Shown: positions 2-18,500 of the stretch, in pieces
Numbering within the stretch: the first letter of the stretch is position 1
Layout of the letters: each line of letters starts with the position of its first letter
DNA from: a virus
Length of the DNA stretch: 24,255 nt
Direction: 5' to 3' (one strand)
Virus record (IMG/VR): IMGVR_UViG_3300017917_003970
Coordinates: 1 to 24,255 of that record
Translations under genes and position numbers: made by a program
Notes under the pieces: generated by a model
What the model was told of the DNA's origin: nothing
The model's input: only the letters and a program-made list of their open reading frames with translations
The model's database searches: none

Positions 2-1915
2 CCACAGATAAACTTTTCAAACTTAGATTTTGATCAGATTAAATCTACGATTAAAGATTATCTGAGAGCCGATTCAAATTTTACTGACTTTGATTATGAG
101 GGATCTAACTTATCGACTTTGATTGATATTTTGGCATACAATACATATTTGAATTCTTTTAATGCGAATATGATTGCGAATGAAGTATTCATTGGTAGTG
201 CAACTCTTAGAGAAAATATAGTTGCTCTTGCACGAAACATTGGATATCTGCCAAGATCAGTATCTTCTTCAAAAGCAAAAATTTCTTTCATTGTTGATAC
301 AACTGCATATAATGTTCCACCATTAACTTTGACACTTAAGTCTGGAGTTTGTGCGGTTTCTAATTCTTTTGGTGCAGAAAGTTATTCTTTTTGTATACCC
401 GAAGATATTACCGTTCCTGTTACAAATTTTTCCGCATCATTTAATGATGTAGAAATTTATGAAGGAAGTCTTATCACACAAACATTCGTAGTTAATAATT
501 CACTTTATAATCAAAGATTTATTTTAAATAACTCTGGCATTGATACTTCAACAATAAGGGTTTTTATTCAAAACAGTTCTTCGGATACAATAAAGAGAAC
601 TTATAAACAAGTTGAAAATATTGGGAATGTTGGATCGGAAAGTGAAGTTTATCTTTTACAAGAAATTGAAGATGAACGTTATGAACTTATTTTTGGTGAT
701 GGAATATTTGGAAAAAAACCGTCAAATCAAAATATTATAACAGTTTCTTATATTGTATCAAAAGGAAAAACTGCAAATGGTATTGGATTATTTTCATTTG
801 CAGGAAAAATTCTTGATAATAATGGAAATAATATTTCTTTAGGAATTTCTAATTTATCAACTACTCAAGTATCATCGGGTGGTGATGATATTGAATCGAC
901 AAGTTCAATAAGAAATTATGCCCCAAAATCATACGCAGCACAAAATAGAGCAGTAACAACATCCGATTATGAAGTTATAGTCTCTAAAGTATTTCCCGAA
1001 ACAGAAGCAGTAACAGTATTTGGGGGTGAGGAATTAAATCCACCACAATACGGAAACGTTTTTATTTCAATTAAACCAAGAAATTATAATTATATTTCAG
1101 ATATCACAAAAAGGAAAATTGAGAAAGATTTAAAAAGATATTCAGTAGCTGGAATTAATGCTAAAATTATAGATTTAAAATATTTGTTTGTTGAAATTTC
1201 TTCTTCGGTTTATTATAATTCAAATCTAACGATTTCAGTAGATGATTTAAAAACAAAAATTATTTCTGCAATTACTTCTTTTTCGAAATCTTCTGATTTA
1301 AATCAATTTGGAAGCAAATTTAAATATAGCAAATTTTTAAAAATAATTGATGATGTTGACCCAGCAATTACATCAAACATAACTGTTCTTAAGATGAGAA
1401 GAGATTTAAGAGCACTTTTAAATACCTTTGCGGATTATGAAATTTGTTTTGGAAATCAATTTCACTTAAAATTTGACAGTTCTGGTAATCGTACTCCATT
1501 TAACATAAAATCAACGGCGTTTAACGTTAGCGGTGTATCTGGAGACGTTTACCTTTCCGATTATCCGAATCAAGATGGAATCAAAGGGACAATTTTTATT
1601 TTTAAAAAAATATCTAATACCGAATACCAAATTGTAAGAAATAATATTGGAACAATTGATTATATAAAAGGAGAGATTATTTTAAACGCATTAAATATAG
1701 TAAGCACTCAGATCATAAACCCAGAGAATATTATTCAAATAGATGCAATTCCCGAGTCAAATGATGTAATTGGATTGCAAGATTTATTTCTACAATTAGA
1801 TATAAATTCACTTAAAATAAAAATGATACCAGATACCATGACATCCGGAGCAGATACCTCTGGATCTTCATATACAAGAACCTCCAGTTTTTCTAACGGA
1901 CCAATAAGTAGATAA
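2..1915 (+). CDS. gp6: Baseplate wedge protein gp6 (T4-like), 5'-partial
   Basis: This is the T4 gp6-type baseplate wedge subunit. In T4 it forms dimers that make the inner ring of the baseplate around the hub. The frame is open from base 2 and begins PQINFSNLDFDQIKSTIKDY, the usual start of marine gp6 proteins. The TTG at 119 is therefore internal. Base 1 is g, so the codon just before may be the ATG. The 637 residues present compare with 660 in T4 gp6, so almost nothing is missing. Counting from base 2, recognisable blocks are LIFGDGIFGKKP (about 230-241), a Baseplate_J-like block with NYAPKSYAAQNRAVTTSDYE (about 305-324), and GGEELNPPQYGNVFISIKP (about 341-359). The C-terminus is a Ser/Thr-rich tail. 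The stop lies one base before the gp7 ATG, which suggests translational coupling. The family call is firm; only the exact start is unseen. Confidence 0.94.
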   Translation, partial: PQINFSNLDFDQIKSTIKDYLRADSNFTDFDYEGSNLSTLIDILAYNTYLNSFNANMIANEVFIGSATLRENIVALARNIGYLPRSVSSSKAKISFIVDTTAYNVPPLTLTLKSGVCAVSNSFGAESYSFCIPEDITVPVTNFSASFNDVEIYEGSLITQTFVVNNSLYNQRFILNNSGIDTSTIRVFIQNSSSDTIKRTYKQVENIGNVGSESEVYLLQEIEDERYELIFGDGIFGKKPSNQNIITVSYIVSKGKTANGIGLFSFAGKILDNNGNNISLGISNLSTTQVSSGGDDIESTSSIRNYAPKSYAAQNRAVTTSDYEVIVSKVFPETEAVTVFGGEELNPPQYGNVFISIKPRNYNYISDITKRKIEKDLKRYSVAGINAKIIDLKYLFVEISSSVYYNSNLTISVDDLKTKIISAITSFSKSSDLNQFGSKFKYSKFLKIIDDVDPAITSNITVLKMRRDLRALLNTFADYEICFGNQFHLKFDSSGNRTPFNIKSTAFNVSGVSGDVYLSDYPNQDGIKGTIFIFKKISNTEYQIVRNNIGTIDYIKGEIILNALNIVSTQIINPENIIQIDAIPESNDVIGLQDLFLQLDINSLKIKMIPDTMTSGADTSGSSYTRTSSFSNGPISR

Positions 1916-1916
1916 A

Positions 1917-4900
1917 ATGATAGAAACAAGAATATCGGCTAAGACTGTTATAGAAGGACAAATACCTCTTTTTATGCAAGAGGAATATCCTTTATTTGGT
2001 CCATTTTTAAAACAATACTATGAATCTCAAGATCATTTTTCTTCTCCTATAACAATTGTAAAAAATATTGACCAATTTCTAAAAGTTGGCACTTATACTT
2101 CTTTAGTTGTTAAAAACGAAAAAACTGTAACCACTCAATTTGTAGATTATGCCGATTCCATAATTTATGTTGAAAACACTGCTGGTTGGCCAGATAGATA
2201 TGGACTACTAAAAATAAATGACGAAATAATAACATACACCGGAATTGGAAGCACTTTTTTTGCTGGATGTATTAGAGGTTTCAGTGGAATTACAACTTAT
2301 AATTTTTATGGAAAACAAGTTAGTTATGAAACAACCGAAAATAATATTCATGAAGTAGGATCAAATGTAGAAAATTTAAGTACCCTCTTTTTAAAAGAAT
2401 TTTTTAAACAAATTAAATCTCAATTTTTGCCCGGATTTGACAACATAGACTTTTACGGAAATCTAAAACAACCAAATCTTTTAATTCAATCGAAAGATTT
2501 TTATTCTACAAAAGGGACGCCAGTTGCAAACAATATTCTCTTCAAATCATTATATGGAGAAGAGGTAGAAACAATTAAACCGCAAGATTATCTGTTAAAA
2601 CCCTCTGCAAATGATTACAGACTTGTAAGGCAACTTGTAGTCAGTCCAATAATTGGAAACCCTTTGGACCTTTCTGGGGGCACTTTATATCAAGAAATAT
2701 CTACATCATCTGGAATAAGAAGTTCATATGGATCTGTTTCAGATGTTGAACCCAACTTTAGAGGTAATGTACCATATTATACTATAGATATTGATTTTGG
2801 ATATGATAGAGATTCCAGAACTTTTGGAAGTATCGTAGGAAATTTTCAAGTTCATCCAATTACAAAAGTCGTAAGTATTGCCTCTTCTTCACTTTTTGTC
2901 GATTCTACTGTTGGATTTGCAAATTCGGGTTCAATACAAGTTAGTGATGCAATAGTTACATATAATCAAAAAACAAACAGTGAATTTTTAAATTGTGTGG
3001 GTATTTCCACCGTTACTGTTGGAGAAAGTGTGACAAGTTCAGATTATATAACTTATGGGTTTGATTCTGAGGGAAATAGAATAGAAGTTAGAATAACCGG
3101 AGTTTTAGAGAAATTAAACGTAAAAGAAGAAGATCAAAATTATTATCAATCCAACGATCCAGTTTTAATAGAAAGTTTAGGACTTATAAAAGATAAAAAT
3201 GATCCTAAATTTAATTCTTGGAAGTTCAATACCTCAACAAAATTTAATGTAAGTTCTATTGTTTGGAATGGTCAATACTTTATTGTTACTTCTTATGATG
3301 ATCATAATTTATATCTAGATGATGATGTCCAATTTGTCAATAAAATTGATAGTAGTATTGTTTTTGGGAAAGTAAGAAAAATTATATCAGATAAAAAGTT
3401 CCAAGTATCTGTAGATTTAGATAAAGGTTCCTCTACCTTACATGAACAATATTTTATTAGACGATCTTTAAAAATTTCTTCCGATTCTCTTACTGAAAAT
3501 AGCTTTAAATTAGATATTCAAGATGTTTATGATAATGAAAGTGACGTATTGATCACATCTGCTTCTTTACCTTCTTATTTAATTGAAGCAACAAATAGAA
3601 AAAAAGATATAACTATTGCTGGTATTACAACCGTAACACAATTAACTATCTCAAATCATAATTTTTATAGTGGTGATTTGGTACATGTTTCTTCTTCAGA
3701 TTCTATTGTTGGTGAAAACAGAAATTATGTTGTAAAAAGAATTGACTCTAATAATATAAAATTGGCATTAAGTAATTCAAATATTACTAATGAATTATAC
3801 TATGAGTTTTCAAATCTTACCGACTCACCAATTATTCTCACTTTAATACCATTAGATAATTTTAATAAGCAGTTAACTTCTCAAAAATTAGTTAGAAAAC
3901 TTGATAGACCAACAGAGTCTTTAATAAAAGAAAAAACTATCTCTGATGGTAGATTAGGAATTCTTATTAATGGTGTGGAAATATTAAATTATAAAGCAAA
4001 AGAAGTTGTATATTATGGACCAATAGAATCTATTGATGTTTTGGATGGTGGAGAAGATTATGATGTCATTAATCCTCCAATTGTGAATATCGAAGATTCG
4101 ACTGGAGTTGGAGCAACTGGAAGATGTGCTGTCAAAGGATCTTTAAAATCAATTGAAATTATTGAAAATGGATTTGATTATCTAAATGTTCCCACAATCA
4201 ATATTAGTGGTGGTAATGGATCTGGTGCAGTAGCAGAAGCAAAATTGTCTCAAATTTATCATGATATTTATTTCAATGCAGTTGGTGTTTCAACTTCTTT
4301 AGGTGGATTTATAAGCACCACAGCAAATTTTATAGGATTTAATACAGAACATAAATTTAACAACGGCGAAAGCATAATTTATAACTCATTTAATGGGACT
4401 AAAATTGGAATCGGATCAACATCTGGAGATGTTTCTACAAAATTATATTTACAAGATAATTCAGTTTATTTTGTGTCCATTATTGACGATCAAAAAATCA
4501 AATTACATAATAATGAAGACGATGCAATTAAAAATATTAATGAAATTAATATTACGTCTCCGGGAACTGGAAATCAAAGAATAAGAGCAACAAGAAGAAA
4601 AAATATTCTAACTTCAATTAATGTAATTAATTCTGGATCTGGATATGAAAATAAACTAAGAACAGTAAATCCACTTGGAATTAACACTGCAAATAATAGT
4701 ATTAATATTTCAAATCATGATTTTAAATCTGGTGAGATAGTAACATATTCAACATCAGGCACACCAATTGTTGGATTAGATACTTCAATTAACTATTATG
4801 TAATTAAATTAGATGATGATAATTTTAGATTAGCCGCGGCTGGAATTGGAACAACTGTTTCGAATTCAAATTATCTCACGAATCAATATGCAATACTTAA

Positions 4901-7900
4901 AACAAGAGGCAGTTCTACACATACCTTCAATTATCCACCAATTACAGTATCTGTAAATGGAAATGTTGGAGTTAGTAGGACTACTATATCCAAATATCAA
5001 GCAATAGTAAATCCAATATTTAGGGGATCAATAACATCCATTCAAGTTACCAATGGGGGGACTGGATATGGATCTACAGACATTATCAATTTTGACAAGC
5101 AACCATCTATTATTTTTAATAGTGGATCTAATGCTGTTCTTAAACCGATTATTGAAGATGATTACATAAAAGATGTTATTGTTTTGAATTCTGGAAAAGA
5201 TTATAACTCTATCCCAACATTCACTTTTAATGGTGGTGGGGCATATGCAAAACTTTCACCCACCATTATAGATGGGAAAATTACATCTATAAAAGTTGTA
5301 AATGGCGGAATTGGTTTCTCCACAAATAAGAGTGATGTTGTTATTAGTGCAAGTGGAAAAAATGCAAGAGTTAAAGCAAATATTAAAAATTGGACAATCA
5401 ATTTAGTAGAAAAATATAAAAATCTTTTCTCACAATCGACAGATGATGGTTTAATTATTCCAGGAATTAAGGATGGACTTCAATATGTAAATTTATTTGC
5501 TCCAAGAAAACTTAGGGAAAATTTGCCATCAAAAAATAATGATGGATCGAATAATTATAATAAATATGATCTGGTTTTTGATACTTTTGAACGATTATCG
5601 ACATTTCACTCTCCAATAGTTGGTTGGGCATATGATGGAAATCCAATATATGGTCCATATGGATATTCAACAGAAACTGGTGGTGAAATTAGAGCAATGG
5701 TTTCTGGTTATCAACTTCTTCCACAATCAGATAGACCCGAGGGATTCTCTGACGGATTCTTTATAGAAGATTATACATTTACGAACTCTGGAGATCTTGA
5801 TGAGCACAATGGAAGATTTTGCAAAACACCGGACTATCCAGAAGGTGTTTATGCTTATTTTGCAACCATTAATCCAGAGTCAGACGGATTTGATACATCA
5901 TATCTAAATTATAGAAGACCTATTTTTCCATACTTAATAGGAAACACTTACAAATCAAAGACAAATCAATTTAACTTTTTGCCTTCATCAAATCAAGAGA
6001 GTTTTGATTTAACGGAAGGTAATTATATAAAAAATACTTATCCATATAAATTAAATGGCGCTCAAAGTGAATATGAATTTATAACTCAACCATTTAAAAT
6101 TTCACAACAACTTTCAATATTAACTGCAACTTCTAAAGGATCTATAGAAAATATTGCAATATCAAGTATTGGTGTTAATTATAAAGTGGGTGATACTATT
6201 GTATTTGATAATACAGATACTAATGGACGAGGTGCTACATCTAAAATTAATGAAGTAGTTGAAAAAAGAATTATTTCTTTAGAGTCTGCAATTAATATTT
6301 TAGAAAATGTTTCTTTTAACATTTTAGATCAAATTGGAACTATTGAAGGAATAACAACAATTCCTCATGCATTATCAACCCTTGATATAGTTAATATATC
6401 TAAAGTATCTGATGAAAGATTTTCAAAATTATCAGGATTTTATAATATTAATGTTTTGGACAATAGATTTACACTGTCTTCTGGAGTTGGAACTCCAGGA
6501 ATTACAGGAATAACAACATTTTTATATTTTGTCAATAGTGTTAATAATGATAATTTAACTGCAAATGATGTTTTAAAAATAACAAATCCTGGAGTTGGAA
6601 CTGAAAAATTATTGGTTCTTGATGTAGATTCTGTTTTTAACAGAGTGAAAGTTAAAAGAGAGTATGATAATACGGTAGGATACGCATATAGTGCATACAC
6701 AACGGTTATTGAAGACCCAAGAAGATTTACGTTTAACAGTGGATTTTCTACGACCTTAACGACAAATTCAAGAAGAAAAATATTCTTTGATCCAAATGCC
6801 TCTATAGCTATAGGAACAGTTGGAATTGGAACAACTATTAATATTTCAGTTGGATCTTCAGTTAAAGGAAAATTTGTTCCGTTACAATCAATTTATATTC
6901 CAAATCATAATTTAATTACTGGTCAAAGATTAATATATTCGAATGAAGGAAACACGTCAATTTCTGTATTTGATAACATTTCTGGAAATAGGCAACTTTC
7001 AGAAAATATCAGTGTTTATGTTGCTAAACTTTCTAACGATTTAATTGGGATATCGACATATCCAATTGGGATAGGATCTACAGGAGGTTTCGTTGGTATT
7101 GGAACAACTGCAACTGTTCTTTATTTTACATCAATTGGTTCGGGTGTTTATCATAGTTTTAAGACACAAGAAAATGAATTAACTGCCAACATTCAAAAAG
7201 TTGTTTGTACATTAACAACAAAACAGGATCATGGATTATTTAAAAATGCAAAGATCGATTTAAATGTTTTACCGGGAATTACAACTTCTGTTGTTATTAA
7301 ATATAACTCTGCAAATAGAAGATTGGTTGCAAATCCAAAATCTTTTGGATCTTCTGGAATTAATACTTTAACTGATAGCATTATAATAACGGATCATAAT
7401 TATAAAACTGGTAATAAAGTAATCTATACATCTTCAAATCCTGCTACTGGATTGATAAATGATAAAATTTATTATGTTGTAAGAATCGATAGGGATTCAT
7501 TCAGATTAGTTGATAGTTTTTATCAAACTACACTTTCAAATCCAAATTATATTAATATAACTGGCACAGGATCGGGACATGAATTATCTGAAGTAAACCC
7601 ACCATTAGAATTATTTAATGGAAATACAGTAAATTTTGATTTATCTGATTCTTCACTATCCGATTTGAATGGTGGAACAAGAGTTCAATCTTTTGATTTT
7701 GATTTGTATGAAAGTTCTTTATTTACAAATAAGTTCATAACATCTTTAAGTTCCGATAATTTTGAAGTTAAAAAAATAGGAACGATTGGAGTTACCAATG
7801 ATGCTAAACTTACTCTCACTGTAAGTAATAATGTTCCTCGAAAACTCTATTATAAATTAACTCCTCTTATTGGAAAAACATATCTGACTAAAGAAAAATC

Positions 7901-10900
7901 TGAAATAATTATTGATGAAGATGTGTTTGACTTTAATTCTATTAACATTATCAATAGCAAGTTTAATGGATCACATACAATTACTGGTATTGGAAGCACC
8001 ACCTTTACATTTAACTTAGAATCTTATCCAGAAAAATCTTTATATACAGAAAATAATTCATTGATTGAATATAAAACCAAAGAATCTGATGCAATAGGAT
8101 CAATATCTAATGTTGAAATATTGTTTGGTGGGGTTTCATACGAATCTCTTCCAGGCATATCTTCAATAAATTCTACAAATGGAAGTGGTGCTATATTATC
8201 ACCAAAAAGCCGTAATGTTGGTAAAATTATAAAATCTACAGTACAAACTCCAGGGTTTGAATATCCTTCGGATCCAACATTAAAACCAATTGCACAACTT
8301 CCAACAAGGTTGCAAATTGAACAACTATACACCATTGAATCTGTTGGATTATCCTCTGGTGGCAAAAATTATTCGGTTCCTCCATCATTTATCGTAATTG
8401 ACTCTGTGACGGGAGAAGTAAAACCAGAAGTTAAACTGCAAGCAGACTTAAGTAGTAATATTGTAAGCAATGTTCGTATTTTAGAAAATACAAAAACATT
8501 ATATGGATCACCAAAAATACTTGCAGTCAATAATAACAATGGTATAGGAATTACAAATATATCATTTAATTCAACTACTAAAATTGTAACAATAAATCTC
8601 GCAGCAGGATTTAGTACCTCTAGAGAGTTTCCTTTTAAAGTTGGAGGAAAAATTTTAATTGAAGGTATTGGAATTGTTTCTACAGGATCTGGATATAATT
8701 CTTCAGAATATAATTATGAATTATTTACTTTAACAGGTGTCACGAGTGCAATTGGTGGTTCTACCGGCGTTTTAAATTTTAAACTCGACAAAGGTACAAA
8801 TCCCGGAATTTTTTCTGAACTAAATTCACTAAACAATGGTATCAGATCTTTTGGTAGAATAGTTCCAGAAGCATATCTTCCCATATTTAATCCCACAATT
8901 TCTTTTGGTACATTTAAATACAATAAAGGAGAAGATATTTATGTTGGTAATGAAAAAGTTGGAACTGTAATTAGTTGGAATCCAATTTTTAAACTCCTAA
9001 AAATCAACTACACTCCAAGAAAAATTTTACCTGGAGAAATAATTCGTGGGGGCGCTACTGATAATAGAGCAATAATTGTAAATGCTTATTCTTCCGATGG
9101 TGATTTTACGGTAAATAGTTTTAATCAAAAATTAAAAGACTATAGTGAAGACACAGGAAAACTTAGTACTTTTCTTCAAGTTCTTCAAGATGGAGATTAT
9201 TATCAAAACTTTTCATACTCATTGAAATCAAAAGTTCCTATTGAAGAGTGGAATGATAAAGTTAATTTACTTACACACACATCAGGATTCAAGAAATTTT
9301 CAGATTTACAAATCATATCAGAACCTGATAAATTTGTAAATGAAGTTATTTCCGATACTTCTTTATTAATTGATATTATTCAAGAGAAAGATTTTGATTG
9401 TTATGAAAATTTTGCTTTTGCCGATGAGTTTACAAAAACTTTCAATAATTCTTTAGTTTCTAATGAAATTTATTTTGATTATTTAAAATTATTGGATTAT
9501 ACAGAATTTAAAACAAATAGAGTTTTAAAAATTGATGATATTTCATCGCAGTTTGATGACACGCCAAATACTTTTAATTATACAGTTGTTGGAACTTTTG
9601 ATGTAACAAAATATAACGCGGCTCAATTTTATCTATTAATAAAAGATACTCGATATTATGGAGAAAAAGAAGTCATAGTTGTTGATGTAATATATGATAA
9701 TTCAAATGGTTACTTGTCAGTGTATGGAAGAAATGAAACAGTTTTAGATTTGGGAGATTTTTCATTTAGAAGGTCTGGCAACAACGGAGAAATTTTATTT
9801 TACCCTAAAAAATATCAATTCAATAGTTACAATATTTCAAACGTTCATGTTGATATTGCAAACTCGGGAACTGTTGCAATTGGTTCAACTTCTCTCGGAA
9901 ATGTTGTGAGTTTCTCTAGTACAGCAATTAATATTTCATCTTCACCGACACCAACAGCAAACACTTTTGTTTCAATATCAACTAATACATATTCATCATC
10001 TAAAGTCATTTTTTCTGCTAGTGATTCAAATGATTTAATTCAATTTGGAGAAATAAATATTACGCACGATGGAAATAATGCATCATATCAAATATTTTCC
10101 GAATTAAAATCTGGAGATTTTAATCCAATCTATGAAGATGGAAATCTTGGAGATATAGACGTAACTACCTCAGGTGGAAATGTTTTAGTTAGATTTACTC
10201 CCAAAGAAAATATAGATGTAAATATAAGAGCTCTCTCAATTTTAATGGGAGGAAGTTCTTCGACTGGTATTGGATCTACTGTTCTTTATAAATCAGAATT
10301 ATCCTCTCATTATGTTTCAATTGCATCAACTATTTCTCCGATTGAAACACCAATTGCAGGATTTACATCTAGTTTAAATGATGCTGCTCATTATTATGTA
10401 CAAATTCATGATACAACTAATAATAGAATTCAATTTTCTGAAGTAATCTTAATTAATGATTCGGAATACAATCCAGCAGTTAGTGAATATGCAGTTGTAA
10501 CTTCTGATATTCAACTAGGAACAATTGGAGCTGCTAAATCAACAACAAATACTAATTTGACATTTACACCTCTTCCAAATATTAATGTTCAAGTCAGAAC
10601 ATATCAAAAAACATTATCAACTACACCAAAAATCGGTGCAATATCAGATATCGATTTAAATAGTGCTCTTATTGAATCAGATATTGAATCTTTATTTTTT
10701 GAAGGTACTGAAATTTCAACTAAAAAGGAATTTAATCTTACTCATAAATCATCACCCATATTCAAAAAGATTTGTGATGGGTCATCTTCATCAGTCGTCG
10801 ATATTGAATCAAATACTATAAGCATACCCAATCACTTTTTTGTAACTGGAGAAAAACTTGATTATTCTTCGGGTTCTTTAGATAATAGAATTGGTATTGC

Positions 10901-13900
10901 ATCAACTTCTATTGCAGGCATAGGAACAACATCTCTTCTTCCTTCTACCCTCTATGCAGTAAAATTAAGTGATAGTTTAATTCAAGTCGCAGACACTCCA
11001 GAAAAAGCACTTAAAAAAATTCCAGAGGTTCTAAATATAAATTCTGTTGGGATTGGAACCTCGCATGTTTTTGCATCAAATTATAAATCTAATTCTAAAG
11101 CATTAGTTTGTATTGATAATGTAATTCAAAGTCCAATTATTCCAACAAATAGAACTACCTCATTAAGTTCAATCGTTGAAGAATCAAATGGTTTTAGTTT
11201 TATTGATTTGGACGATGTTACTGGATTTTATGCCAGAGATTTAGTTAAGATTGACAATGAATTTATACTTTTATATGATATTGGAATTGGTGGAACAAAT
11301 AGGGTTTATTGTCGCAGAGAACAATTCGGAACAATTGGCACATCTCACAGTTTAGGAGCAACAGTTACCAAATATTCTGGTGATTATAATATAGTAGATG
11401 ATGTGATTTATTTCATCGAAGCTCCCCATGGTGGTGACCCAAATAATTTAGAAAGATATTCTAGTTTTCAAGGAAGAGTTTTCTTAAGAAGTGAACCAAT
11501 TGGATCTTCTGTAACTGCATATTACAACAATCATGTATTTGATGACATTTCAAATCAATTTAATGGTATTAGAGACGTTTTTCAGTTAACTTCTCAGGGA
11601 GAAAATATTTCTGGAATTGTTTCTAGTAGTTCTGTTTCCGCAGGTATTCTTCTCATTAATAATATATTTCAAAAACCAAAATATCCTGCAACAGGAATTG
11701 CACAAACCTATACCTATGAAGTTATTGAAAGTTCTGGTATTTCTAGTGTTCTCTTTAGTGGAAATAAAGTTGGATTAACAACAACAGGATTAATAGGTCC
11801 AATGAAATTTGATATTAATACTGCAGGTATTCCAAGAGGAGGAATTATTGTTTCTGTTGGATCAACACAAGGATATGGATTCCAACCTTTAGTCGCTGCC
11901 GGAGGAACTGCAATTGTTTCTATTGCTGGAACCATTCAATCAATATCAATTGGAAATAGTGGGTCTGGATATAGACCCGGAATTCAAACATCAATTGTAG
12001 TTTCTGTGGCATCTTCTACAGGAAATATATCTATTGGAACCGCACTTGCTAACAATGGACACATTGTATCAATTGCCGTAACTAATATAGGTGCTGGTTA
12101 TACCACTACAAATCCACCAGAAATAATTATTGATGCCCCATTGAATTATGAAAATATTTCATTAATTTATGATTCATCAAATACTGGAGTAGGAACTGAA
12201 TGTTCCGCAAATATTATAGTTGGATTTGGTAATAGTATTACAGAGTTTACTATTATCAATAGTGGATATGGATATTCAACTGGTGATATTTTAACTGTTC
12301 CAATTGGTGGGTCAACAGGAATCCCAACTTATACATCTTTATCTTATAGACCGTTTCGAATTACTGTCGATGAAGTATTTAATGATAGTTTTAGTGCTTG
12401 GTATCCGGGACAATTTGTTGTTTTAGATGATTTTGATAGTGAATTTGATGGATCTAAAAGAACATTCAAACTCAAAGAAAATGGTGAGTTGCAAAACTTT
12501 ATTTCTGCGAGAGGATCTTCTTTACAATTAAATCAAAACATACTTATTTTTATTAATGACATTTTACAAATTCCTGAAGAATCTTATAAATTTGATGGTG
12601 GATCACAAGTAGAATTTTATGAACCACCTAAGTTTGACGATAAAGTCAAAGTATTATTTTTTAAAGGATCTGATACCGATGTAGATGAAGTAGAAGTTGA
12701 ACCAACAATAAAAGTTGGAGATAAATTAACCTTATTTGATAGACTTAGGTCTACTAAAGATACTTATACCCAATCATCAAGAGTTGTTTCTGAAATTTCT
12801 TTCATAGATGCAGTATTCACAAATCCATATTTTGGTCCTGGAATTAATTCATTATCAAATATAACTAGAACTGTAGAATGGTGTAAACAAAAAGAAGATT
12901 TTTATCTTGATGAAACTCTTATTTCAAAGAGTAGAGAGGAATTAAATTCTAATATTTTTCCGATTACAAATATTATTAGACCTGTTGGAATTGGAAGCAC
13001 GGTTATTTTTGTTGAAAATACAAGACTTTTATTTAATTACGCCCCAGAAATTTTGCCATCATCAAAACAAATTTTAAATATTATTAATCAAGATGAAAAA
13101 CGTAATGCTATTGCCACTGCAGTGGTTTCAATAGCTGGAACAATTTCAGATATTATTATTAGTGACGGTGGAGTTGGATTTACAACAGTTCCCATAATTT
13201 CAATTTCAACTCCCTCTTCTGGATCAATTGCGGTTGCCACTTGTTTGATTAGTGGAATAGGAACGGTTAATTCTATTGCAATTACAAATCCAGGATCCGG
13301 ATATACCGAATCAAACCCCCCAAAAATTTTAATTGAATGTGAACCGGTTAAAGTAGAAACAGTAACAAATGTGTTATATGAAGGTGATTTTGGTATAGTT
13401 ACTGGAATTGGTACAACAAATATATCAGGAGTATCTACTGGAATTACTTTTGACTTTTTTATTCCAAAAGACTCGATTTTAAGAGATATAAATGAAGTTG
13501 GATCGGCAGTTACAATGTCTGGTATTCAAACTGGATACTATTTTGTGATATCACAATCTAACATTGGAAAAGGAGTGACATCTTTGAATAATGATTCATC
13601 AATTTTGGGTATAGGGTCAACTTATATTGATAATGTGTATCAAGCATATAAAGTTGAAAACGTGGTTTCACCTGCACTTGGTATTGGTAACACTAATGAA
13701 ATATTGAGAGTCACAACAAGTGTGACATCTTTTAATAATTTGACTGGCACAGGAACTAGTCAAATGTTTGGTCGATTTAGTTGGGGTAGAATATATAATA
13801 TTGATAGAGGATCAACTCCGCAAATTTTTAATGTTGATTTGACTAACGGCATATCAGGATTAAATACGGCACCATTAATTGTAAGAGCAACTCCAATGAG

Positions 13901-13919
13901 ATCACTATATACATCATAA
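1917..13919 (+). CDS. gp7: Giant gp7-like baseplate wedge protein (4000 aa)
   Basis: The position between gp6 and gp8 and two motif blocks identify this as a T4 gp7 equivalent, the wedge subunit that nucleates baseplate wedge assembly. Block one is DFYSTKG followed by LFKSLYGEEVE (residues 194-219); T4 gp7 has DFYSTKG and FLFKVLYNEEVE in its C-terminal third. Block two is GEIIRGG and, at 2425-2466, a stretch with YSLKSKVPIEEW; T4 has GEIIRG and MKIKSNLPSSRW. T4 separates these by about 100 residues, here by about 2200. The spacer holds glycine-rich repeats and a YHYH-like domain (about 1205-1345). After block two come three copies of a beta repeat (about 2568-2896), INxxxQ-P segments (about 3065, 3247, 3545) and a C-terminal FGRFSWGRI block (about 3951). 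T4 gp7 has 1032 residues, and its N-terminal two thirds are not recognisable here. No signal peptide or membrane segment is seen. The start is the only ATG at the gp6 junction. Codon use matches the neighbours and there is no frameshift. A purely fibre-like role for the extra mass is possible but unproven. Confidence 0.86.
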   Translation: MIETRISAKTVIEGQIPLFMQEEYPLFGPFLKQYYESQDHFSSPITIVKNIDQFLKVGTYTSLVVKNEKTVTTQFVDYADSIIYVENTAGWPDRYGLLKINDEIITYTGIGSTFFAGCIRGFSGITTYNFYGKQVSYETTENNIHEVGSNVENLSTLFLKEFFKQIKSQFLPGFDNIDFYGNLKQPNLLIQSKDFYSTKGTPVANNILFKSLYGEEVETIKPQDYLLKPSANDYRLVRQLVVSPIIGNPLDLSGGTLYQEISTSSGIRSSYGSVSDVEPNFRGNVPYYTIDIDFGYDRDSRTFGSIVGNFQVHPITKVVSIASSSLFVDSTVGFANSGSIQVSDAIVTYNQKTNSEFLNCVGISTVTVGESVTSSDYITYGFDSEGNRIEVRITGVLEKLNVKEEDQNYYQSNDPVLIESLGLIKDKNDPKFNSWKFNTSTKFNVSSIVWNGQYFIVTSYDDHNLYLDDDVQFVNKIDSSIVFGKVRKIISDKKFQVSVDLDKGSSTLHEQYFIRRSLKISSDSLTENSFKLDIQDVYDNESDVLITSASLPSYLIEATNRKKDITIAGITTVTQLTISNHNFYSGDLVHVSSSDSIVGENRNYVVKRIDSNNIKLALSNSNITNELYYEFSNLTDSPIILTLIPLDNFNKQLTSQKLVRKLDRPTESLIKEKTISDGRLGILINGVEILNYKAKEVVYYGPIESIDVLDGGEDYDVINPPIVNIEDSTGVGATGRCAVKGSLKSIEIIENGFDYLNVPTINISGGNGSGAVAEAKLSQIYHDIYFNAVGVSTSLGGFISTTANFIGFNTEHKFNNGESIIYNSFNGTKIGIGSTSGDVSTKLYLQDNSVYFVSIIDDQKIKLHNNEDDAIKNINEINITSPGTGNQRIRATRRKNILTSINVINSGSGYENKLRTVNPLGINTANNSINISNHDFKSGEIVTYSTSGTPIVGLDTSINYYVIKLDDDNFRLAAAGIGTTVSNSNYLTNQYAILKTRGSSTHTFNYPPITVSVNGNVGVSRTTISKYQAIVNPIFRGSITSIQVTNGGTGYGSTDIINFDKQPSIIFNSGSNAVLKPIIEDDYIKDVIVLNSGKDYNSIPTFTFNGGGAYAKLSPTIIDGKITSIKVVNGGIGFSTNKSDVVISASGKNARVKANIKNWTINLVEKYKNLFSQSTDDGLIIPGIKDGLQYVNLFAPRKLRENLPSKNNDGSNNYNKYDLVFDTFERLSTFHSPIVGWAYDGNPIYGPYGYSTETGGEIRAMVSGYQLLPQSDRPEGFSDGFFIEDYTFTNSGDLDEHNGRFCKTPDYPEGVYAYFATINPESDGFDTSYLNYRRPIFPYLIGNTYKSKTNQFNFLPSSNQESFDLTEGNYIKNTYPYKLNGAQSEYEFITQPFKISQQLSILTATSKGSIENIAISSIGVNYKVGDTIVFDNTDTNGRGATSKINEVVEKRIISLESAINILENVSFNILDQIGTIEGITTIPHALSTLDIVNISKVSDERFSKLSGFYNINVLDNRFTLSSGVGTPGITGITTFLYFVNSVNNDNLTANDVLKITNPGVGTEKLLVLDVDSVFNRVKVKREYDNTVGYAYSAYTTVIEDPRRFTFNSGFSTTLTTNSRRKIFFDPNASIAIGTVGIGTTINISVGSSVKGKFVPLQSIYIPNHNLITGQRLIYSNEGNTSISVFDNISGNRQLSENISVYVAKLSNDLIGISTYPIGIGSTGGFVGIGTTATVLYFTSIGSGVYHSFKTQENELTANIQKVVCTLTTKQDHGLFKNAKIDLNVLPGITTSVVIKYNSANRRLVANPKSFGSSGINTLTDSIIITDHNYKTGNKVIYTSSNPATGLINDKIYYVVRIDRDSFRLVDSFYQTTLSNPNYINITGTGSGHELSEVNPPLELFNGNTVNFDLSDSSLSDLNGGTRVQSFDFDLYESSLFTNKFITSLSSDNFEVKKIGTIGVTNDAKLTLTVSNNVPRKLYYKLTPLIGKTYLTKEKSEIIIDEDVFDFNSINIINSKFNGSHTITGIGSTTFTFNLESYPEKSLYTENNSLIEYKTKESDAIGSISNVEILFGGVSYESLPGISSINSTNGSGAILSPKSRNVGKIIKSTVQTPGFEYPSDPTLKPIAQLPTRLQIEQLYTIESVGLSSGGKNYSVPPSFIVIDSVTGEVKPEVKLQADLSSNIVSNVRILENTKTLYGSPKILAVNNNNGIGITNISFNSTTKIVTINLAAGFSTSREFPFKVGGKILIEGIGIVSTGSGYNSSEYNYELFTLTGVTSAIGGSTGVLNFKLDKGTNPGIFSELNSLNNGIRSFGRIVPEAYLPIFNPTISFGTFKYNKGEDIYVGNEKVGTVISWNPIFKLLKINYTPRKILPGEIIRGGATDNRAIIVNAYSSDGDFTVNSFNQKLKDYSEDTGKLSTFLQVLQDGDYYQNFSYSLKSKVPIEEWNDKVNLLTHTSGFKKFSDLQIISEPDKFVNEVISDTSLLIDIIQEKDFDCYENFAFADEFTKTFNNSLVSNEIYFDYLKLLDYTEFKTNRVLKIDDISSQFDDTPNTFNYTVVGTFDVTKYNAAQFYLLIKDTRYYGEKEVIVVDVIYDNSNGYLSVYGRNETVLDLGDFSFRRSGNNGEILFYPKKYQFNSYNISNVHVDIANSGTVAIGSTSLGNVVSFSSTAINISSSPTPTANTFVSISTNTYSSSKVIFSASDSNDLIQFGEINITHDGNNASYQIFSELKSGDFNPIYEDGNLGDIDVTTSGGNVLVRFTPKENIDVNIRALSILMGGSSSTGIGSTVLYKSELSSHYVSIASTISPIETPIAGFTSSLNDAAHYYVQIHDTTNNRIQFSEVILINDSEYNPAVSEYAVVTSDIQLGTIGAAKSTTNTNLTFTPLPNINVQVRTYQKTLSTTPKIGAISDIDLNSALIESDIESLFFEGTEISTKKEFNLTHKSSPIFKKICDGSSSSVVDIESNTISIPNHFFVTGEKLDYSSGSLDNRIGIASTSIAGIGTTSLLPSTLYAVKLSDSLIQVADTPEKALKKIPEVLNINSVGIGTSHVFASNYKSNSKALVCIDNVIQSPIIPTNRTTSLSSIVEESNGFSFIDLDDVTGFYARDLVKIDNEFILLYDIGIGGTNRVYCRREQFGTIGTSHSLGATVTKYSGDYNIVDDVIYFIEAPHGGDPNNLERYSSFQGRVFLRSEPIGSSVTAYYNNHVFDDISNQFNGIRDVFQLTSQGENISGIVSSSSVSAGILLINNIFQKPKYPATGIAQTYTYEVIESSGISSVLFSGNKVGLTTTGLIGPMKFDINTAGIPRGGIIVSVGSTQGYGFQPLVAAGGTAIVSIAGTIQSISIGNSGSGYRPGIQTSIVVSVASSTGNISIGTALANNGHIVSIAVTNIGAGYTTTNPPEIIIDAPLNYENISLIYDSSNTGVGTECSANIIVGFGNSITEFTIINSGYGYSTGDILTVPIGGSTGIPTYTSLSYRPFRITVDEVFNDSFSAWYPGQFVVLDDFDSEFDGSKRTFKLKENGELQNFISARGSSLQLNQNILIFINDILQIPEESYKFDGGSQVEFYEPPKFDDKVKVLFFKGSDTDVDEVEVEPTIKVGDKLTLFDRLRSTKDTYTQSSRVVSEISFIDAVFTNPYFGPGINSLSNITRTVEWCKQKEDFYLDETLISKSREELNSNIFPITNIIRPVGIGSTVIFVENTRLLFNYAPEILPSSKQILNIINQDEKRNAIATAVVSIAGTISDIIISDGGVGFTTVPIISISTPSSGSIAVATCLISGIGTVNSIAITNPGSGYTESNPPKILIECEPVKVETVTNVLYEGDFGIVTGIGTTNISGVSTGITFDFFIPKDSILRDINEVGSAVTMSGIQTGYYFVISQSNIGKGVTSLNNDSSILGIGSTYIDNVYQAYKVENVVSPALGIGNTNEILRVTTSVTSFNNLTGTGTSQMFGRFSWGRIYNIDRGSTPQIFNVDLTNGISGLNTAPLIVRATPMRSLYTS
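4035..5330 (+). repeat. Cluster of GGxGY beta-repeats in gp7
   Basis: Six copies of a short motif, roughly I-x-x-I-x-V-x-N-G-G-x-G-Y, followed by a run ending in a proline or beta strand and often GxGA. They read VLDGGEDY (4035), IIENGFDY (4155), VINSGSGY (4623), VTNGGTGY (5047), VLNSGKDY (5181) and VVNGGIGF (5295). Further single copies lie near 6170, 8121, 8347, 8675, 11948, 12077, 12252, 13156 and 13281. The spacing varies and the DNA copies have diverged, so this is an old protein-level repeat and not a recent DNA duplication. Confidence 0.75.
5520..5950 (+). other. YHYH-like domain inside gp7 (about residues 1205-1345)
   Basis: Within gp7 the segments GWAYDGNPIYGPYGY (1236-1250), LDEHNGRFCKTPDYPEG (1294-1310), VYAYFATI (1311-1318) and FPYLIG (1337-1342) match the pattern of the YHYH protein domain: DG-x-PIYGP, LDE-x-NG, then the YHYH signature. 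The signature itself reads YAYF, so both histidines are lost. The domain is predicted globular and stands apart from the low-complexity repeats on both sides. Its function is not established. It could be a glycan-binding or structural head carried by the spacer. Boundaries are approximate. Confidence 0.7.
9618..10620 (+). repeat. Three diverged copies of an 80-residue beta repeat in gp7
   Basis: Three units follow one pattern: Y-x-V-x-I-x-D, about seven residues, Q-F-x-E-V-x-x-I-x-D, a tyrosine-containing strand, then F-T-P and V-x-V-R-x. Unit 1 starts at AAQFYLLIKDTRYYGEKEV (about 9618, residue 2568). Unit 2 starts at KVIFSASDSNDLIQFGEI (about 10003). Unit 3 starts at AAHYYVQIHDTTNNRIQFSE (about 10383). 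Units 2 and 3 are the closest pair. They directly follow the second gp7 core block and open the C-terminal extension. Linkers of roughly 45-50 Ser/Thr-rich residues separate them. Unit ends are approximate. Confidence 0.6.
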
Positions 13920-13937: not shown

Positions 13938-15512
13938 ATGTCTGCGATAATTACAAACCAGTTTAGAATATTAAATTCCGAAAATTTGATTTCCGGAATA
14001 GCATCAACGAGTTCAAATAATTATTATGTTTTCTTGGGATTACCAAATTCATCACAAGTAGATTCCAATTGGGACACATCAACTCCTAGTCCAGTAGATA
14101 ATTTTGATCAATATAATGATTTTTGGGATACAATAATTGCTTTAAAAAAATTAAATGATACGGATATTTCAAAAGTTATTAGAAAAATAACTTGGACATC
14201 TGGAACAACTTATGATATGTATCGACATGATTATTCTGCCAGTAATCCAGCTCCAAATAGTGGAGGCACAAATTTATACGATGCAAATTTTTATGTTGTA
14301 AACAGTGATTATAGAGTTTATATTTGTATTAATAATGGTACGAATCCAGAAAATCTTTCCGGAAAACCATCAATCGATGAACCACTTTTTGTTGATCTTG
14401 AACCTCGATCTGCTGGTGTCAGTGGTGATGGTTATGTATGGAAATATTTATTTACGATTAAACCATCGGAATTAGTAAAATTTGATTCTACTTCATATAT
14501 GCCAGTTCCTAAAAATTGGTCATCAAATACAAATGTCGCAGCTGTAAGAGATAATACATTGGTAAGTGAACAAATAAAAACTGCTTTGATTACAAATAGG
14601 GGCCAAGGTTATACTCCAAATACTTATAACAATGTTCCAATTAAAGGTAATGGTTCTGGAGCACTTTGTTCTATTGTTGTTGGCGCAGATCAAAAAGTTT
14701 CATCTATATCAATAACAAATGGTGGATCTGGATATACTTATGCAACAGTTGATTTAGAATCGGCGGGGATCGTAAATGGATCAACTGATAAAGATGCAGA
14801 GTTTACCGTAATCATTCCACCGCCTGGTGGGCATGGATTTGATATTTATAGGGAACTTGGTGCTACAAGAGTTTTAATTTATTCTAGATTTGAAAATGAC
14901 AGTTTAGATCCCGATTTTATTACAGGAAATCAATTTGCTAGAATTGGAATTATCAAAAATCCAACATTTTATAATTCAACTACAATATTAACAAAACAAA
15001 AAGCAAGTGCATTATATGCATTAAAATTGACCGGCATTACAACATCTACAACTTATACTTTAGATTCTGAGATTACACAAACTATAGGTGTTGGTTCAAC
15101 AGCTGTTGGAAAAGTTGCATCTTGGGATAACGTGACTGGAGTTTTAAAATATTGGCAAGAAAGAAAACCTTCAATATCAACTCAAAGAGATGCGTACAAT
15201 AATCCAATAACACCAAAATATGGATACCAATTGTTCGACTTTACTGCGAATCCAGACACTGGAGGAAGTATTACAATCGTTGGTGGATCAAGCAACTTAG
15301 CAATTCAAACTTCGTTTGGAACCAGTGATAATCCAGGCATATCAACAGAGATAAATAACAATACCTATTATCTTGGGCAAACTTTTATTAAAGGTTTGGC
15401 CGCACCAGAGGTTGAAAAATATTCTGGAGATATACTTTATATTGATAATAGACCATCTGTGATTAGAACTTCCAATCAAAAGGAAGACATTAAAGTTATA
15501 CTGCAGTTTTAA
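13938..15512 (+). CDS. gp8: Baseplate wedge protein gp8 (T4-like), enlarged
   Basis: T4 gp8 is a dimeric wedge subunit that binds gp7 and gp10 in the outer baseplate. Three segments match it: the N-terminal ITNQFRI (T4 VTSKFRT), GDGYVWKYLFTIKP at 163-176 (T4 GDGYVWEYLFEIPP), and the C-terminal GDILYIDNRPSVIR at 497-510 with a final KVILQF (T4 GEMIYMENRPPII and INILFTF). The protein has 524 residues against 334 in T4. Much of the excess lies between residues about 205 and 420. That region carries two GGxGY-type repeats (ITNRGQGY near 218, SITNGGSGY near 258-266) and a VGKVASW segment, both of which are also found in gp7. The ATG is preceded by an A-rich run with no Shine-Dalgarno match, and by a putative late promoter. 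The family call is firm. Confidence 0.94.
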   Translation: MSAIITNQFRILNSENLISGIASTSSNNYYVFLGLPNSSQVDSNWDTSTPSPVDNFDQYNDFWDTIIALKKLNDTDISKVIRKITWTSGTTYDMYRHDYSASNPAPNSGGTNLYDANFYVVNSDYRVYICINNGTNPENLSGKPSIDEPLFVDLEPRSAGVSGDGYVWKYLFTIKPSELVKFDSTSYMPVPKNWSSNTNVAAVRDNTLVSEQIKTALITNRGQGYTPNTYNNVPIKGNGSGALCSIVVGADQKVSSISITNGGSGYTYATVDLESAGIVNGSTDKDAEFTVIIPPPGGHGFDIYRELGATRVLIYSRFENDSLDPDFITGNQFARIGIIKNPTFYNSTTILTKQKASALYALKLTGITTSTTYTLDSEITQTIGVGSTAVGKVASWDNVTGVLKYWQERKPSISTQRDAYNNPITPKYGYQLFDFTANPDTGGSITIVGGSSNLAIQTSFGTSDNPGISTEINNNTYYLGQTFIKGLAAPEVEKYSGDILYIDNRPSVIRTSNQKEDIKVILQF

Positions 15513-15517
15513 TTCTC

Positions 15518-18500
15518 ATGCCACAAGAAACTAATTTAAATAGAACTCCATATTTTGATGATTTTGATCCAGATAAAGATTTTCATAAGGTTCTTTTTAA
15601 ACCTGGATATTCCGTTCAGGCTAGAGAACTAACGACTTTACAATCAATATTACAAAACCAAATTGAAAAGTTTGGTAATCATTTTTTTAAAGAGGGTGCC
15701 AGAGTTATACCTGGAGCTGTTACTTATAGTTTAAATTATAGAAGTGTGCAGATAGATCCAACTTTTTTAGGGTTGCCAATAAGTTTATATCAAAATCAAT
15801 TAATCGGAAAACAAATAAAAGGATCTGTAAGTGGTGTTACAGCAACTATTACTAATATTGAAACAAACCCAGAGACTAATAATATTATCCTTTATATAAA
15901 TTATGAAAATTCTGGCAATAATTTTGTAGACAATTTATTTTCAGATGGTGAAAATTTAATTACACTTTCAGATATAACATTTGGATTGTCAAATATTATA
16001 CCTTCTGGTGAAGAGTTTGCTAAAACAGTTAGTTCTAATTCGACAAATGTTGGATCTGCTGTTTTTATATCAGAAGGTGTTTATTTTATTCGTGGGTATT
16101 TTGTAAGAGTTGCTAATCAAACTTTAGTGCTTGATAAATTTTCAAGTACTCCAACTTATAGGATTGGATTATTTGTTAATGAAGAAATTATTTCTGCGGA
16201 TCAAGATGAAAGTTTATATGATAATTCCAGAGGATCTTCAAACTATACGGCACCCGGTGCAGACAGATTAAAGATATCAGTTATTTTGTCTAAAAAAGAA
16301 ATTGATAATTTTGAAGATGAAAATTTTATAGAACTTTTAAGACTTAACTCGGGAGTTTTAGAAAGAATAGTAGATAAAACTCAATATAATATTATTGCTG
16401 AAGAATTAGCAAGAAGGACTTTTGATGAATCTGGAGATTATTACATTACTCCATTTTCAATTGTAATGAAAAATACGTTAAATAATAGAATTGGAAATGA
16501 TGGTTTATTTTTCCAAAATCAATTAACAACAAATGGAAATGTGCCATCAGATAATTTGATGACATATAAAATTTCACCTGGCAAAGCTTATATAAGAGGA
16601 TTTGAAGTTTCAAAAGACAATCAATCATTCATTGATATTGAGAAACCAAGATCAACTAATTTGGTTGAATTGGAGGGAATTGGTTTTAATGCCGGACCAT
16701 CTATCTTTGTTAATAATGTTGTTGGACAACCGACAGTTGGCATAGCCACAACTGCATTTTTAAGTTTAAGAAGTGAAAGAAGAGGAATAGGTGTTGGAGC
16801 TTCTGGGAGTGAAATAGGTGTCGCAAGAGCGTATGATTTTAATTTTGTAAGTTCTACTGGCATAACCACAACATATCAAATTAGACTTTATGATATTCAG
16901 ACATATACTACTCTCGGATTAAGCACAAACATTAACTTACCAGTTTCTTCATTTATTGAGGGAAAAACAAGTGGAGCAAGGGGATATGTAAAGACTGCGG
17001 TGTCTAATTCTACCATAGTTACATTATATGATGTAACCGGAAGGTTTTCTAAAAATGAAGCAATTGCAGTTAGTGGAATTGGAACTTATGGACATTTAGT
17101 AAAGAGCATTAAAGATTATAAATTATCTGATGTTTTTTCAATTTTTTCTTATAGAGATACTGCAACTAGTAACGTAGGATTTAATGCAGATGTTTCTTTA
17201 GATGTGGAAATTGCACCAACATTAAATATTGCCAATGCTGTGTCAAATGCAAATCTTCCATCATTTACAATTAGCGCAAAAGACCCAGATACTGGAATTT
17301 CTACAGTAACATCAACAACGACAAACTTTATTGGGATTGCAACTATAGGAAATGTTGTAAGTTATACTAGACCCGGATTTTCGACGGTCACTTTCAATTC
17401 AATATCAACAATTTCCGCAAATGGTAGAACTCTTGGATTAACTAGCGTTACAACTGTGCCGGGAATTTGTAATGGGGACACTACACCAGTAGAAATAATA
17501 ACTTCCAACTTTTCAATTCGTTCGTCGAGAATTCAAAACACTACAGATCCATCATTTACTGCAAAGTTATCAAAATCAAATGTTCAAACAATTGACACAG
17601 AAAATACCGATGTTTCTTTAAAGAGACAGTACAATATTGCCTCTTTTAGTGGAAATACAATTACTGGTCCTACATTAGAGACTGATTTTATTTACGAACC
17701 ATTTAATAATGAAAGATACACTTTAACCTATGCTAATGGAAAGATAGAGTCTTTAAGTTCGGATAAATTTATTTTTACAAACGGATTTAAAAATTTACAA
17801 GTTAAAAATTTAAGTGAATCTTCTGGATCAAATGCAACTCTCATTGTATCTTTAAAAAAAAGTAAAGTAAAAGAAAAAATTAAAAAACTTAATAAAGCAA
17901 ATACTCTTATAATTAGCAGATCAAATAATATTGCTTCTGGAGTTGGTGCTTCAACTTTAAATGATGGTTTAACTTATAGTACCGTTTATGGAACAAGAGT
18001 TCAAGATAATGAAATATCATTAAATGTTCCAGATGTAGTTAGAGTTCTTGATATTTTTGAATCATTAGACACAAATGATCCTTCGTTACCGTCAATTTCT
18101 TTTGTACCAGCGTCCCTATCTGGACCAAATAATGTTGCGACAGATGTTTTGGTTGGAGAAAAAGTCATTGGATCGGAAAGCAATTCAGTAGCAATCGTAA
18201 TTTCAAAATCAACTCTTTCACTTGAAATTGTTTATTTGAATGGGAGTATTTTTGTCCCCGGAGAATCAGTTTCTTTTGAAGAATCTGGAATTACTGGAAC
18301 TTGTAGTGCAATTACAACTGGGGATAAAATTATTACATCAAATTATAATTTAGATGGAGGACAAAGACAAAATTACTATGATTTTTCTAGAATAATTAAA
18401 AGAAATTCTACATTTAATCCCAATAAAAAAGTTAAAATAGTTTTTCAAAATTATGTTGTAGAATCTTCTGATAATGGCGATGTATATACTGTGGATAGTT

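Follow-up and report, generated by a model that had tools for sequence, protein, structure and literature searches.

The window, meaning here the whole stretch of DNA analysed, is the entire IMG/VR virus record IMGVR_UViG_3300017917_003970 (24,255 bases). It possesses a giant gene at 1917-13919 on the + strand, an open reading frame (ORF) which starts with ATG, is open throughout and encodes a protein of 4000 amino acids (aa). This gene is situated directly between the genes of gp6 (phrog_219) and gp8 (phrog_438), and its product is read below as gp7 of the baseplate wedge. The genes of the window are as follows.

2..1915, + strand: gp6, the wedge partner of gp7; 637 aa, 5' end cut by the contig; phrog_219 (baseplate wedge subunit) E 5.1e-197, Pfam Gp6-like_1st 5.5e-15.
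1917..13919, + strand: giant gp7; 4000 aa, 437.3 kDa; phrog_2885 (baseplate wedge subunit, profile length 4179) E 0.
13938..15512, + strand: gp8; phrog_438 E 8.7e-165, Pfam Phage-Gp8 3.7e-13.
15518..23149, + strand: VrlC-type protein; 2543 aa; phrog_358 E 0, DUF4815 1.4e-58.
+ strand, also in the window: a head-tail adaptor gene.

The match to PHROG 2885 spans most of the giant protein; the best of its two stretches places residues 1-3367 on profile positions 5-3356 of 4179 (E 0). From gp8 to the gp13-type gene, the VrlC-type gene is the sole window ORF of at least 80 aa, and T4 has gp9-gp12 and wac in this interval. The product of 15518-23149 was labelled VrlC-type on the basis of its gene position and the VrlC labels of its relatives. 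The DUF4815 match lies in this gene, and the domain was not found in the 4000-aa protein at E<=1.

Two conserved blocks, A and B, were distinguished in the giant protein. Its parts are given below with residue numbers of the protein.

1917..2096, + strand: block A, first part, residues 1-60; N-terminal helices, counterpart of the T4 gp7 helical domain (T4 from ~643).
2097..2354, + strand: small beta module within the helical block, residues ~61-146; second copy at ~315-380.
2355..2606, + strand: block A, second part, residues 147-230; helices with DFYSTKG and LFKSLYGEEVE; giants-only profile matches 10/10 short gp7s, T4-free profile 8/8 T4-type ones.
2619..3122, + strand: putative counterpart of T4 gp7 domain V, residues ~235-402, from a predicted model; second small-module copy nested at ~315-380.
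3123..8927, + strand: giant insert, residues ~403-2337; beta domains, repeated HxFxTG and GSGY modules, YHYH domain.
5607..5873, + strand: YHYH domain in the insert, residues 1231-1319; PF14240 E 4.8e-24.
8928..9326, + strand: block B, residues ~2338-2470; beta module and YYQNFSYSLKSKVPIEEW...HTSGF stretch, strand-helix-strand in the short-core model.
9327..13916, + strand: C-terminal extension, residues 2471-4000; more repeated modules at 2970, 3338-3461 and 3741-3798.

The insert comprises about 1935 residues, and about 1530 residues follow block B. Pfam Gp7_helical is placed at 643-689 of T4 gp7. In short relatives such as Cr30, vB_OspM_OC (OC) and pf16, residues 1-60 align and the next core part follows directly; the small beta module at ~61-146 is not present in these three in the alignment. 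A profile of residues 77-144 matched 320-387 of the same window protein (9.2e-14), and the module matches lie at 78-129 and 320-380. In S-ShM2 (L004:5846-24442) and S-SZBM1_208 (L242:19249-39108), about 510 extra residues are found inside the first small module, between profile positions ~110 and ~113, and the core therefore has at least two tolerated sites. The small module was also observed in the VrlC-type protein of the window (residues 2135-2176, 4.7e-10), and GSGY modules are common to gp7, the VrlC-type protein and gp8 of the window. The DNA repeats comprise 41 families; the 20 shown are short and diverged, so a recent tandem expansion is not indicated.

A preliminary description of this DNA had pointed to gp7-like motifs in one open frame. 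They are present as quoted: DFYSTKG at 194-200, LFKSLYGEEVE at 208-218, GEIIRGG at 2373-2379 and YSLKSKVPIEEW at 2434-2445. The motifs which it gave for T4 gp7 (reference of 1032 aa, from NC_000866) are also real and lie about 100 residues apart, with DFYSTKG at 733-739, FLFKVLYNEEVE at 746-757, GEIIRG at 836-841 and MKIKSNLPSSRW at 864-875. It had further proposed a profile comparison with T4 gp7, and this gave a match by hhalign, in which the E values refer to a single comparison: block A reached Prob 97.7 (E 1.9e-12) and block B alone Prob 72.9 (E 3e-5). The block A match extends to T4 814. The pairing of the GEIIRG strings of the two proteins did not hold, as hhalign places the string (displayed in L086, a close relative) opposite T4 GQEVKAE near 825 instead of 836-841. 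The hexamer was dropped as a homologous motif; because it is paired elsewhere in T4, it is probably a generic motif of beta modules. No counterpart was found for the T4 N-terminal domains (1-640), the window protein beginning at T4 ~643.

The first profiles were iterated on sets including T4-type proteins. Their E values for T4 are not independent for this reason, and the profiles were rebuilt without these proteins. The rebuilt block A profile, made from marine and short relatives with zero T4-type sequences, matched 8/8 T4-type gp7 proteins (full-sequence E 9e-9 to 5e-6, Z=40000), against E 1 for the best of 168 decoys, which were shuffled or reversed sequences. The block B profile gave weak matches in all 8, each at the collinear place; the domain scores were 8.4-11.0 versus 4.0 for the best decoy, and the full-sequence E values 0.03 to 48 versus 53.

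Short natural gp7s bridge the window-type protein to T4 gp7, and thereby supply the significance of block B against T4. Ten named short gp7-type proteins, chosen by block A or block B search matches, were used: OC (631 aa), Desulfovibrio phage 7757 (586), BUCT-ZZ01 (607), pf16 (523), XG4 (419), Cr30 (767), Melnitz (896), HTVC008M (1016), phiN3 (1006 as annotated, 1017 in the frame read here) and DLP6 (1288). In OC the core blocks are nearly adjacent, with the end of block A at 199 and the start of block B at 196. By tblastn, the block B region of the window matched Desulfovibrio phages within E 1e-5. Seven short cores were aligned by hhalign to T4 gp7 642-905 in one run (Prob 98.8, E 4.6e-17). 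When a profile of six short cores was compared with 177,635 PDB sequences, only two were significant, both of them T4-type gp7 (E 6.1e-9 and 1.4e-8; next best 0.86), with block A at 644/645-758/759 and block B at 860/861-907, in order. The homology and the order of both blocks are thus established through these relatives.

Profiles made from 53 giants only gave the same connection from the other side. The A core and the B core each matched 10/10 of the named short gp7s, the worst domain E being 1.3e-7 and 1.6e-5 (Z=40000). Six control stretches of 126 residues between the blocks, taken from the same giants, matched 0/10 of them; the controls were chosen by us outside the GSGY modules, there is overlap between two of them, and the last shares 18 residues with the beginning of block B. 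GSGY modules recur in the inserts of five relatives (phiN3, DLP6, Cr30, Melnitz and HTVC008M). As the controls fail while these modules recur, the inserts share building blocks and not the order or place of the core blocks. Among IMG/VR short proteins 100/101 were matched by the giants-only profiles, a figure which is partly circular since the set had been picked by profiles of both blocks. PHROG 26741 (497 positions, unknown function) also bridges the families: block A of T4 gp7 (664-759) falls on its positions 24-116, S-SM2 gp7 189-354 on 80-235 and window block B 2407-2532 on 376-489.

The gene neighbourhood was compared in 17 phage loci, namely the 10 short ones, T4 and six giant or large relatives, with gp6 and gp8 profiles iterated on the same 17 loci. 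In 17/17 the gp7-type gene is immediately preceded by a gp6 homologue, and gp8 directly follows it in 12/17, including 6/10 of the short ones. The gp8 profile found none for pf16 and ZZ01, and its sole match in XG4 is the gp7 of that phage. In S-ShM2 and Melnitz, other genes are situated between gp7 and gp8.

To place the blocks in three dimensions, a short core of 289 aa from IMG/VR locus L161 was modelled with AlphaFold2 from 52 sequences. The model has a mean predicted local distance difference test score (pLDDT) of 77 and a predicted template modelling score (pTM) of 0.42. Foldseek gave three PDB matches at E<=1e-3, all of them gp7 (9f4a, 5iv5, 5hx2). VIA-align likewise placed gp7 on top (Z 11.3, 11.0 and 8.1), followed by a baseplate chain of phi812 (Z 8.0; 124 residues at 3.9 Å, model 50-279 on 47-182) and further baseplate chains of P1 (6.7), A-1(L) (6.4), a Streptomyces system (5.2), diffocin (4.9), Bas63 (4.5) and Mu (4.5). 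With diffocin, Mu and Bas63, the superposed part comprises 63 residues (2.2-2.7 Å), which range over model 93/96-275/278 and fall within 70-84 residues of the target. Judged by ranges and counts, this would fit the last helix and strand of block A (~26) plus block B (~33), the beta domain 136-218 being skipped. On this reading of the models, both blocks would make one small core domain, in whose gap T4 domain V and the giant insert each sit.

Residues 180-1370 of the window protein (1191 residues) were predicted as beta-rich (pLDDT 78.1, pTM 0.61). The best VIA match of this model is T4-type gp7, with window 235-402 on T4 765-848 (Z 8.4, 81-83 residues, 3.4 Å), and T4 765-848 corresponds to Pfam domain V (766-861). 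Most other VIA rows for this model are common small barrels, and no function was read from them. Because the putative counterpart of domain V ends at 402, the insert was placed at about 403-2337, within the accuracy of the model. The preliminary description was right that the gp7 core is kept and that an array of beta modules is inserted in its middle; its insert of about 2200 residues is corrected to about 1935, beginning after the domain V counterpart.

Block A matches were obtained in 234 sequences and block B matches in 172, and 164 sequences have both. The IMG/VR sets are the best 80 of longer lists, or small lists, and some contigs are counted under two locus ids. Block B was also held by 33/80 block A loci in L005-L084 (where 45 ORFs run past the stretch and 2 stop early), 19/19 in L085-L108, 21/30 in L128-L160 and 76/80 in L161-L240. 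Flanks in L161-L240 were 3000 bases, so that inserts above ~1000 residues are invisible there, and S-CREM2 (1937 aa) falls in this gap. The sizes of gp7-type genes form a ladder whose smallest and largest members have 419 and 6619 aa. Between the last residue of block A and that of block B, short and middle forms have 71-1008 residues and the giants among the 164 sequences 2147-2712, with S-CREM2 gp122 as an intermediate (1937 aa, block B ending at 1921). A tree of 162 rows (136 distinct), midpoint-rooted with no T4 outgroup and without the fragments L130_1_1557_cc and L093_2_0_oc, grouped the giants in one clade (39/39, local support 0.98), mostly from marine phages. The insert is similar along the giants, residues 180-1370 being 37-86% identical to the window in 42 relatives. 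The architecture is not special to this window and is conserved in the giant clade.

From these results the 4000-aa protein is read as gp7 of the baseplate wedge, with a probability of roughly 80%: a kept core, an excursion of about 1935 residues after the domain V counterpart, block B completing the core and about 1530 more residues, with the added parts presumably forming an outward periphery. Several observations weigh against this. Block B alone is weak against T4. The curated Pfam gp7 models (helical, V and VI) gave no match in the window protein at E<=1, including PF21427 (domain V) and PF21456 (domain VI), though they match T4, and NCBIfam gave nothing for gp7. A single-sequence PDB search with the whole protein found no gp7, returning four chance-level matches and no relative at E below 0.1. 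The pTM of the short core is low, and its gp7 chain matches follow fold order and not rigid shape (template modelling score 0.28-0.35, root-mean-square deviation 20-22 Å in Foldseek and 17.7-19.2 Å in VIA-align). Its superpositions on Mu, diffocin and Bas63 (Z 4.5-4.9) score below unrelated EF-Tu-type barrels on the beta domain (Z 5.0-6.2); for this reason these rows alone would not carry the one-domain point, to which the phi812 and gp7 matches add. The one-domain reading comes from the short core of a relative, not from the window's own blocks. Neither of the outcomes which the preliminary description had named as refuting its idea occurred: gp7 profile matches were obtained for both blocks, and in the predicted natural short core the end of block A and block B superpose together on contiguous stretches of baseplate chains, several of these rows scoring below unrelated ones. 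The Foldseek search with the window model had no match at E<=1e-3, 5iv5 standing at rank 3 with 0.014. The domain V similarity ties with unrelated barrels on other parts of that model (Z 8.4 vs 8.3), and the assignment depends on position as much as on score because of this tie. Copy number, position and function of the insert are argued by analogy.

A two-block match by chance, or through a generic phage-tail motif, would agree with the weakness of block B alone and with the failure of hhalign to align GEIIRG as homologous; it is scarcely credible in view of the PDB-wide specificity, the decoys, the control stretches and the structure searches. A different account is in print for two phage groups. 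According to PMC7029224, gp7 is absent and apparently substituted by VrlC 'in both groups', which we take to be the pelagimyophages and cyanomyophages. The 4000-aa protein would then be of tail-fibre or adhesin type and share pieces with gp7, and modules indeed abound in it, two kinds being found in VrlC too and one in gp8. Neither block, however, was found in the VrlC-type protein of the window or in the VrlC of HTVC008M. In phiN3, HTVC008M, S-SM2 and P-HM1, a VrlC-annotated gene after gp8 coexists with a gp7-type gene carrying both blocks after gp6, and both blocks occur in order in short proteins right after gp6 which match T4 gp7 642-905. We consider the replacement of gp7 by VrlC very improbable; the present result contradicts the printed claim of absence.

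Two further possibilities concern the fate and the role of the insert. The giant protein may be cut after synthesis, the blocks in separate chains rejoining in the wedge and part of the insert being lost or independent. Mass spectrometry of virions by others, which shows that orthologues are parts of the virion, detected S-SZBM1_208 (6619 aa) with 71 peptides and 13.5% coverage (PMC9146016 Table 1) and S-CREM2 gp122 (1937 aa) with 91 unique peptides and 27.2% (PMC10665884 Table 3). Both proteins carry both blocks, and such coverage is compatible with cleavage; four ORFs (L022, L029, L130 and L234) also close without a block B match. The genes of the named giants speak against a division, those of S-SM2, S-ShM2, P-HM1, P-SSM2 and S-SZBM1 being single ORFs with both blocks and that of S-CAM9 a single ORF spanning them. 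Cleavage is considered unlikely. Compatible with gp7 identity, and given a nearly even chance, is the idea that the insert is mainly a structural spacer which widens the baseplate, receptor binding being done elsewhere by tail fibres and not by a receptor-binding layer such as the preliminary description had suggested. The collinear and fairly constant insert of the giants, in its length between the block ends and in its identity among the 42 relatives, fits such a role. Receptor-binding regions usually vary faster.

For the protein as gp7, the following arrangement is proposed. The core would consist of a helical arm bundling with two gp6 chains and a small domain formed from the end of block A (the DFYSTKG helix) and block B. 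The chain would exit the core after the domain V counterpart, run through about 1935 residues of beta domains including YHYH, and return, so that block B (strand-helix-strand) completes the core domain before the further ~1530 residues. Such a core would build (gp6)2-gp7, presumably in six copies as in T4, which would amount to about 2.6 MDa. By analogy, the insert and the C-terminal extension may radiate outward as peripheral baseplate. This periphery could take over the support and attachment work done in T4 by the gp7 N-terminal domains and gp9-gp12, and YHYH and other modules might be presented towards the cell. In PMC3004832, T4 gp7 is described as a monomer present in six copies in the tail, and the wedge as assembled in strict order. 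For the type VI system, PMC6300606 states that loops 1 and 2 of TssG each anchor a TssK trimer, and in XM1 gp17 two unresolved parts hold the tail spikes (PMC10457771). Since TssG loops anchor TssK and XM1 gp17 parts anchor spikes, this subunit could plausibly have grown by enlargement of its loops. Tentatively, and at somewhat less than even odds, the outer baseplate of cyanophages and other marine T4-like phages may grow from the wedge core and not, as in T4, be put together mainly from separate proteins, one chain leaving a half-built domain, forming megadalton-scale peripheral arms and returning to finish it. If this is true, baseplate size and periphery would evolve by growth of an insert at one tolerated site next to domain V.

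Compared with known systems, T4 gp7 (PDB 5IV5, 5HX2) is like the window protein in its place between gp6 and gp8 and in having the helical part, the DFYSTKG helix and block B in the same order, with a putative counterpart of domain V at the collinear place before block B. It differs in size and in the position of its extra mass: in T4 (1032 aa) about 640 residues precede the core, whereas in the giants the extra mass lies inside and after it, in the window ~1935 residues after the domain V counterpart and ~1530 after block B. The T4 N-terminal domains and domain VI were not treated as defining gp7, because XM1 gp17 with 242 aa is called the T4 gp7 ortholog. The block B feature of T4, an HPxGF strand-helix-strand, is reached in two steps, from window-type profile to short gp7s (10/10) and from short gp7s to T4 860-907; the direct match is weak. 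The giant cyanophage gp7s of PHROG 2885 (S-SM2 4156 aa, P-HM1 4446 aa, P-SSM2 5195 aa) share both blocks, the large insert and the clade with the window, and PHROG 2885 matches S-SM2 gp7 over its length. The window protein is divergent from them, its first 1000 residues being 37.3% identical to S-SM2 and 31.4% to P-SSM2. The short gp7s of the Ochrobactrum phage OC, Desulfovibrio phage 7757, Pseudomonas phage pf16 and Synechococcus phage BUCT-ZZ01 have both blocks and gp6 directly before, but only 523-631 aa. Among the simpler contractile systems, phi812, Mu, A-1(L) and diffocin have baseplate chains on which the short core can be superposed. PMC6300606 and PMC10457771 describe gp7, TssG and XM1 gp17 as related; TssG has TssK-holding loops and XM1 gp17 (242 aa) short spike-holding parts, and neither has anything as large as this insert.

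The giant gene is already labelled gp7 in the records of S-SM2, P-HM1 and P-SSM2, and the family stands in PHROGs as 'baseplate wedge subunit'. The architecture is real and well supported as a variant of a known wedge protein, not a new kind. Literature searches, in which coverage of subscription journals was thin, found no description of a split gp7 core. The split-core anatomy, the size ladder and the conflict with the printed absence of gp7 appear to be new. In the oceans, the T4-like phages which infect cyanobacteria and SAR11 rank among the most abundant viruses. The results give domain borders for structural work, make testable the question of where extra mass fits without breaking the wedge in baseplate evolution, and show which gene is gp7 where labels mislead.

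Such labels were met in several records. The true gp7 of HTVC008M (L112:18436-21486, 1016 aa, with both blocks) goes under the name 'head closure Hc2'. The annotation 'baseplate wedge initiator' is given to three other genes of this phage, and neither block was found in the two which were checked. In S-ShM2, the label gp7 is attached to a gene (L004:24467-26188, 573 aa) for a YHYH protein that has neither block, and both blocks are found in the 6198-aa 'structural protein' before it (L004:5846-24442). S-SZBM1_205 (L242:14260-16107) is labelled 'baseplate wedge initiator'; the block A profile matches its small beta module only (265-319, 6e-10), and it gave no block B match.

A few other relatives showed peculiar gene forms. 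The gp7 ORFs of L022, L029 and L234 (1859, 1821 and 719 aa) stop without a block B match and may represent natural gene splits, lost blocks or assembly errors. L130 has a HTVC008M-like gp7 with an in-frame stop after 223 residues, which divides it into two pieces of the same frame (223 and 788 aa). In the T4-type Proteus phage PM2 (L118:1693-4802), the annotation divides gp7 between two neighbouring genes, 1693-2676 and 2709-4802, with the core in the second; this may be a natural split or an error in a partial genome. The C-terminal half of DLP6 gp7 (L121:5983-9849) contains after block B several hundred residues of a T/R/N-rich repeat (TTxRxTNRxT-like), unlike the marine modules. In the C-terminal part of BUCT-ZZ01 gp7 (L125:7980-9803), a repeat around SDTQGLSDDKDYxFTKxR occurs several times after block B.

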